Assembly (NCBI GenBank): GCA_905234865.1
Contig: CAJOJE010000004.1
Location: 62,001 to 126,000, forward strand
From: Candidatus Gastranaerophilales bacterium
GTDB lineage: Bacteria > Cyanobacteriota > Vampirovibrionia > Gastranaerophilales > Gastranaerophilaceae
Direction of reading: 5' to 3'
Length of the DNA: 64,000 bases
The position numbers were made by a program, and so were the translations under genes. Shown here piece by piece: positions 2,906 to 56,930 of this stretch; position 1 is the stretch's first letter, and the number at the start of each line of letters is the position of its first letter. Under the pieces are notes generated by a model that worked only from the letters and a program-made list of their open reading frames with translations, did not search any database and was not told where the DNA came from.

Positions 2906-2980
2906 AGCGGTATCGTCTAGTGGTTAGGACGGGAGATTCTCATTCTCCAAACAGGGGTTCAATTCCCCTTACCGCCGCCA
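2906..2980 (+). tRNA. tRNA-Glu(CUC)
   Basis: A complete cloverleaf is readable: acceptor strand 2906-2912, D arm GUC/GAC, anticodon stem GGAGA/UCUCC around loop UUCUCAU (anticodon CUC at 2939-2941), T arm with GGTTCAA, and an encoded CCA at 2978-2980 after discriminator G. The first base pair is A1 with C72, a mismatch unusual for an elongator tRNA. The 3' 14 bases are copied twice downstream as part of a tandem repeat. Confidence 0.93.
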
Positions 2981-2982
2981 TA

Positions 2983-3008
2983 CTCTTGCTTATGGGCAAG
3001 AGCTTTTT
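2983..3008 (+). terminator. Intrinsic terminator after tRNA-Glu (copy 1)
   Basis: A 7-bp stem CTCTTGC/GCAAGAG (2983-2989 and 2996-3002) is followed by CTTTTT. It begins two bases after the tRNA CCA and is duplicated exactly at 3087-3112. Confidence 0.85.
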
Positions 3009-3086
3009 GTTATAAGGGGAATCAACCTCTCGAAAAACGTGACATTTAGTCACCTTTTTCTCGGCAGAGTCCTTACCGCCGCCATA

Positions 3087-3112
3087 CTCTTGCTTATGGG
3101 CAAGAGCTTTTT
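3087..3112 (+). terminator. Intrinsic terminator, second copy in the tRNA-Glu repeat
   Basis: This is an exact copy of the terminator at 2983-3008, with stem CTCTTGC/GCAAGAG followed by five T. It lies inside the second repeat unit, after a duplicated tRNA 3' end, so read-through transcripts would meet a second stop. Confidence 0.8.
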
Positions 3113-3315
3113 GTTATAAGGGGAATTATTACCTCTCCTCAAAAGCAAGGTGTCTTGCTTTCTCGTCGGCAGAGTCCTTACCGCCGTTTAACATGATTTT
3201 TTGTATTTATAGATAACTAAGCCGAGAACTTGTATTTATTAATGATTTATTAAGTTTTGCGAAGGTATAAATTAAGTAGTACTAAAATAAATGTACATGC
3301 AACCATTTATGCATA

Positions 3316-36590: not shown

Positions 36591-36672
36591 GGCAATTGCA
36601 GACTTGAACCTCTAAACGCCATAAAGCGTTTATGCATTTTTGCACATAATCCCGCAATCGGCATTGTGGGGG
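36591..36672 (-). repeat. tRNA-tail element downstream of tRNA-Val
   Basis: Read on the minus strand after the tRNA terminator, bases 36672-36657 are complementary to the tRNA anticodon arm and variable loop (15 of 16 bases, complement of 36746-36761). Then comes a 7-bp hairpin TAAACGC/GCGTTTA (36613-36632) and a decayed sense copy of the T arm at 36611-36601 (11 exact bases, offset 130 from the tRNA), with partial similarity continuing to 36591. The order equals that found after tRNA-Glu and tRNA-Pro. Confidence 0.75.
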
Positions 36673-56842: not shown

Positions 56843-56930
56843 TTTTAAATAAATGGTCAAAAACGACAGGACATTAAAACGGCTCGACGTTTTAAGCAGA
56901 CTTGCAAAAATTTAATGCAGGTTCAAATCC
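56843..56930 (-). repeat. tRNA-tail element downstream of tRNA-Pro
   Basis: On the minus strand after the tRNA terminator, bases 56930-56917 are an exact 14-base complement of the tRNA T arm (57004-57017). A perfect 8-bp hairpin TTAAAACG/CGTTTTAA (56874-56895) follows, and then a sense copy of the tRNA 3' end: 10 exact bases (AACGACAGGA on the plus strand), a short mismatch, and 16 exact bases at 56843-56858 that include the CCA and sequence beyond it (copy of 56979-56994). Confidence 0.88.

Follow-up and report, generated by a model that had tools for sequence, protein, structure and literature searches.

A dispersed palindromic element at the tRNA genes of Gastranaerophilales

Introduction

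tRNA genes are expected to resist insertion. In the E. coli tyrT operon (rtT RNA), a tandem 178-bp unit downstream of the tRNA carries the tRNA 3' end, and cyanobacterial SDRs and Rickettsia palindromic elements (RPE) are tiny hairpins that invade the loops of RNA genes and one another. The hairpin elements of mitochondria (RHE) behave in the same way (PMC2800124). Repeats of the REPIN/REP-RAYT type are short, non-autonomous and present in high copy number, with conserved ends around a variable hairpin spacer, compensatory changes and tandem clusters (PMC3116915). Template switching is marked by perfect stems and by double substitutions that occur without G-U steps (PMC8794818).

The window analysed here is a stretch of 64,000 nucleotides from a Candidatus Gastranaerophilales bacterium, whose genome (G000) was examined as sequence stretches around its tRNAs. 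A preliminary description of the window had reported a tandem 56-nt block with a third, partial copy behind the gene for tRNA-Glu, each full block holding the tRNA 3' end with CCA, a terminator and a segment exactly complementary to part of the tRNA. All of these features are confirmed, with every coordinate (Table 1). The description had overlooked a palindromic element, E, between the blocks, as well as mirror-image units on the 5' side of other tRNAs. Judged from sequence comparison, E is probably a small mobile palindrome, similar to REPINs and SDRs, that colonises tRNA genes in Gastranaerophilales and is inserted together with a template-switch duplication.

Results

Table 1. Coordinates of the units behind tRNA-Glu, tRNA-Val and tRNA-Pro in the window.
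Feature	Position	Strand	Basis or remark
tRNA-Glu (CTC), intact, CCA encoded	2906..2980	+	ARAGORN; Rfam RF00005
Direct-duplication block D, copy 1, 56 nt: tRNA 3' end from T-arm, terminator, anti-tRNA segment	2967..3022	+	
Intrinsic-terminator-like hairpin CTCTTGC/GCAAGAG with T-run, copy 1	2983..3008	+	sequence
Anti-tRNA segment TAAGGGGAAT, copy 1, exact complement of 2962-2971	3013..3022	+	sequence; p=0.013
Palindromic element E, copy 1, ACTCTGCCGAGAAAAAGGTGACTAAATGTCACGTTTTTCGAGAGGT, pointing into tRNA	3025..3070	-	pattern match G000:C4:65025-65070:-; dispersed copies
Block D, copy 2, made up of a tRNA 3' end (3071-3084), a terminator (3087-3112) and an anti-tRNA segment (3117-3126)	3071..3126	+	
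Anti-tRNA segment, copy 2	3117..3126	+	sequence; p=0.003
Palindromic element E, copy 2, stem differing from copy 1 (GCAAGACACCTTGC)	3131..3175	-	pattern match G000:C4:65131-65175:-
Final partial tRNA 3' end copy CCTTACCGCCG, no terminator after it	3176..3186	+	
tRNA-Val (GAC) unit: anti-tRNA segment	36657..36672	-	antisense to tRNA nt 31-46, one mismatch
tRNA-Val (GAC) unit: degenerate tRNA copy	36601-36624		unrelated hairpin between copy and segment
tRNA-Pro (GGG) unit: anti-tRNA segment GGATTTGAACCTGC	56917..56930	-	14 nt exact
tRNA-Pro (GGG) unit: tRNA 3' copy	56871 down to 56862		copy and segment separated by a hairpin of a different class

The repeat behind tRNA-Glu consists of two copies of a hairpin element of about 45 bases, with the tRNA kept intact. 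The two copies of block D are 100% identical over 56 nt at a spacing of 104, and chance is excluded for this exact repeat. A 21-nt block at 3061-3081 recurs at 3166-3186 and yields the third, partial copy of the tRNA 3' end. The segments between the blocks (46 and 45 nt) are minus-strand copies of E, a dispersed element. In Rfam, the repeat unit has no match at the gathering threshold, nor any up to an E-value of 1; the tRNA alone gives a convincing match, and no family covers the unit.

Read in the direction of the tRNA, E consists of ACTCTGCCGA, a variable self-complementary stem-loop and GAGAGG, 39-47 bp in all. When a segment of the window was used to search congeners, the matches fell on the two E copies and not on the tRNA part, and the E core has matches in 8 of 9 congeneric genomes, next to tRNAs for Thr, Leu, Arg, Met, Pro and Lys. 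With its middle left free, the pattern occurs in 247 of 286 sampled genomes and 36 of 50 genera of Gastranaerophilales, an order of gut bacteria, reaching 75 copies in one genome, and the reversed pattern gave no match in the same 286 genomes. E is a real and widespread element family. It appears to be absent outside the order, where a scan of about 110 genomes of the phylum returned only three chance matches, none of them palindromic; among the named GTDB records that contain E, almost every one belongs to Candidatus Gastranaerophilales or to an unnamed gut bacterium. No description of E was found in a search of non-subscription literature.

Several occurrences lie apart from this pattern. 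A record labelled Muribaculaceae (JAMPCZ010000013.1) has a single E 442 bp from the contig start, and is possibly mis-binned or the result of transfer. Almost all of the first 80 loci from a viral scan with a loose E pattern are chance matches, the one real copy being an intergenic E with a full palindromic stem on a contig with phage-like genes (IMGVR_UViG_3300011008_000426). E is also nested in larger dispersed multi-hairpin repeats that have been amplified genome by genome (G085, L312-L322; G050, L323-L331; G096, L144-L169), for example GTCTGAGTGGGACCTCGCT...GGGGTCAGTTGACTATATGA and TTCCCCGGCTTGGGGAAGCGAATTTGC[E]...GCAAATTC.

E copies are concentrated at tRNA genes and face them. Among 60 sampled copies, 41 lie within 350 bp of a tRNA and a further 8 at contig edges, with such space making up roughly 1.6% of the genome, and more than 15 tRNA species have E in their flanks. 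All 58 near-tRNA copies of the first set point into a tRNA, the six whose nearest tRNA lies behind them also having one ahead, and so do 95 of the 98 near-tRNA copies in an independent GTDB set, with 74 in sense orientation on the 5' side and 21 in antisense orientation on the 3' side. Targets extend beyond tRNAs, since six copies of the GTDB set point at tmRNA genes (L374-L453 and further loci), and E also adjoins a 5S rRNA gene, where an incomplete 5S rRNA copy accompanies it.

Each unit holds E inside the D-arm or T-arm of an incomplete tRNA copy. The breakpoints of 5' units fall in the D-arm, at about tRNA nucleotides 11-12 or 17-20, and those of 3' units in the T-arm, about 11-14 nt from the tRNA 3' end. 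In nearly all units, the sequence between flank and breakpoint is present as a direct duplication, and the adjacent tRNA is always intact, so that a unit reads D, E, then the rest of the arm with a second hairpin and often an inverted arm copy, then D again and the rest of the tRNA. At one locus (G003:C24:11931-12040), E and a Met-tRNA 3' copy stand without a neighbouring tRNA, which suggests that it was lost or relocated.

The middle of E is free in sequence and constrained in pairing. Of 76 distinct cores, 72 pair at 8 or more of 9 positions, compared with 5% of shuffles. In two alignments of same-length copies, 33 and 41 stem cells differ at both pairing partners, as against 0 and 3 that differ at one partner only; none of 500 shuffles reaches the observed covariation, and all controls favour the stem. 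At 1.8% of paired positions, G-T pairs are scarcer than in the tRNA acceptor stems of the genome under study, where they reach 6.6% (p=0.0003). Covariation with so few G-T pairs favours selection or copying at the level of DNA, because selection on a DNA stem, or its copying as DNA by a process such as template switching, would be expected to give double changes without wobble intermediates (PMC8794818). We infer that the substrate of E is DNA rather than RNA; the scarcity of G-T pairs could also stem from recent common ancestry.

In genus g21, synteny at the Thr-TGT/Tyr/Thr-GGT locus allows filled and empty sites to be compared. E is present at 15 loci, at some of them in tandem; a further 6 are empty and have no more than 11-35 bp separating Tyr from Thr, while remnants or other hairpins occupy another 5. 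The tree of the Thr-GGT locus requires four state changes, at least 2 of them forced by well-supported branches, which shows gain or loss of E at this one orthologous site; the presence and absence pattern may include deletions, as in the sister pair G117/G183. Glu orthologues in G002, G007 and G008 lack the unit, the flanks there being non-syntenic, and at the eMet flank synteny is too poor for empty sites to be compared.

The anti-tRNA segment bears on another reading, that of a tRNA-like leader or trailer in which the segment, by pairing with the tRNA, would control how the tRNA folds or matures. At p<0.01, 16 of 51 units have a stretch antisense to their neighbouring tRNA, where about 0.5 are expected; at p<0.05, 23 of 51 do. 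In some 5' units, such as those at Thr-GGT, the segment closes a tRNA-like three-way junction; units of this kind accompany their tRNA between genera, and E carries a conserved purine-rich internal loop, GA opposite GAGA. An RNA function could follow from this loop and from the tRNA-like folding of some 5' units. Against it, the segment is undetectable in most units, which indicates that it is no conserved requirement, every 3' unit has E in antisense orientation to the tRNA, the E stems are almost without G-U pairs, orthologous empty sites exist, and the same E is found in the phage contig and in unrelated dispersed repeats. A functional RNA is for these reasons unlikely, and the earlier suggestion of an RNA that buffers the tRNA is weakened. 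The three-way junction was rejected as a universal fold, as it holds for some 5' units only. The segment looks like a by-product of fold-back copying, sometimes kept as an optional stem, and not like a conserved tRNA regulator.

E might also not transpose at all, if tRNA loci were to swap D-E units with one another, using shared D-arms, T-arms and leaders for template switching or ectopic recombination. The Arg and Met units of G001 have E, the second hairpin and ATCCCGA in common, as their tRNAs do the T-arm, and Thr-GGT loci with near-identical flanks bear wholly different E stems, both in favour of such exchange. Yet E shifts between 5' (sense) and 3' (antisense) contexts and occurs in the phage contig, beside the 5S rRNA copy and in dispersed repeats away from tRNAs, and we regard exchange alone as quite unlikely.

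Scars of site-specific integration, whether tyrosine-recombinase att sites or integron-like cassettes, are very unlikely. tRNA ends are classical att sites, and each unit is flanked by direct repeats of the tRNA 3' end; but the units, of about 100-130 bp, contain no gene, and at tRNA-Glu the unit of about 104 bp has no ORF, where a tyrosine-recombinase integrative element would have an integrase gene between att repeats. The same element, moreover, occurs with reversed orientation at tRNA 5' ends, the terminator or leader forms part of the duplication, and the stem is free in sequence but paired, unlike a double-stranded att core. Of the proposal that the repeat is a remnant of tRNA-targeted integration, what survives is that a probably mobile element colonises tRNA genes, without an integrase-type att site or cargo.

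Local slippage or chance, as an isolated tandem duplication at one tRNA, would suit the variable tandem copy number but is refuted by a core that recurs throughout the order in fixed orientation and at so many tRNA species. The preliminary description had held that absence of such units from most tRNAs of the same genome would point this way; by inspection, about 11 of its 39 tRNAs have one and 28 do not, yet the pattern recurs in related genomes.

Two enzymes were considered as mobilisers. RAYT genes are commoner in high-copy genomes (12 of 19 versus 3 of 22, p=0.0014, uncorrected for kinship), and RAYT-type Y1 transposase genes of about 178 aa (L175-L191) occur in many Gastranaerophilales, often near tRNA genes. 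The RAYTs of related genomes are flanked by GTAGGTTGGGC..GCCCAAC, and 5 of 16 have an E within 200 bp, several of these being linked to tRNAs. RAYT was rejected as mobiliser of E because RAYT loci carry their own GTAG palindrome and RAYT is absent from the genome under study, in which no Y1_Tnp was found. Reverse transcriptase was rejected as well, showing no association with E copy number (7 of 19 versus 9 of 22). The RAYT and reverse transcriptase tests thus identified no mobilising enzyme for E.

Similar units are built around other hairpins. The same order had been reported at tRNA-Val and tRNA-Pro, and the sequence of tRNA, terminator, anti-tRNA segment and partial 3' copy is present at both, with hairpins that are unrelated and 3' copies that have decayed. 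An architecture of D, hairpin, anti-tRNA segment and D with hairpins unrelated to E is seen at tRNA-fMet (L039), Val (36601-36672) and Pro (56862-56930), from which it follows that several element families use tRNA arms. In the genome under study, the intergenic region between tRNA-Thr TGT and GGT (L017) holds an array of another hairpin class, GCCCATGTGGCAGGGTCGCCC..GGGGCAGGC, in which each unit begins with the Thr-GGT 5' end.

Discussion

E differs from REPINs and the other small palindromic elements compared in its placement in tRNA arms and in the regenerated tRNA. It has the free-sequence hairpin spacer with compensatory changes between conserved ends that characterises REPINs, but REP and REPIN sequences bear a GTAG/CGTC tag at the foot of the palindrome, whereas E starts with ACTCTGCCGA and ends with GAGAGG without such a tag. 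They also have a RAYT with a cognate repeat, whereas E differs from the sequence flanking the RAYTs of these genomes, and REPs are scattered extragenic singlets, whereas E lies in tRNA arms with part of the tRNA duplicated. With SDRs, RPE and RHE it shares dispersal, hairpin formation, lack of an ORF and patchy presence at orthologous sites; those elements insert within a gene, whereas in E units an intact tRNA is regenerated beside the partial copy, in fixed orientation into the gene. The parallel drawn earlier with tyrT extends to tandem units with a tRNA 3' end and stops there, the tyrT repeats having neither E nor an antisense segment and occupying a single locus, whereas E is a dispersed family.

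Template-switch footprints and E units have in common perfect stems and double substitutions without G-U steps; the footprints also show reverse-complement copies next to their source (PMC8794818), which may be shared by some E units, 16 of 51 having an antisense match at p<0.01. Template switching, one of the origins first proposed for the repeat, is in a fold-back form probably the source of the direct and inverted copies. The direction of synthesis would account for the orientation rule, and the low share of G-T pairs fits such an origin; alone it cannot supply a conserved sequence such as E.

If E is a mobile palindrome, it would join the gene in the first arm met from outside, which is the D-arm on the sense strand and the T-arm on the antisense strand. 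Synthesis running into the gene would halt at this arm, gain E and resume behind the halt, and the orientation rule would follow because the strand grows into the gene and stops at the first arm to acquire E. Resumption would synthesise the segment from flank to arm twice (leader and tRNA 5' end, or tRNA 3' end and terminator), giving the direct copy, with an intact tRNA to follow. A brief reverse excursion would lay the short inverted arm copy, the anti-tRNA segment, between the copies in many units. Units would then multiply in tandem, twice here at 104 bp, and decay. We advance only tentatively, as one possibility, that an undescribed recombination system acting on single-stranded hairpins targets the first arm of genes for tRNA, tmRNA and 5S rRNA and inserts E there, with the gene regenerated by re-copying of the flank.

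The strict orientation rule informs on how E is copied, and E sites with empty and filled orthologues, of which there are many, form a natural data set for long-open questions on the spread of REP-like palindromes and on how hairpins retain perfect pairing. E also explains contig breaks caused by repeats near tRNAs, and its units caution against taking such anti-tRNA segments as regulators. If such a recombination system is at work, essential RNA genes would serve as safe and renewable insertion sites for a whole bacterial order.
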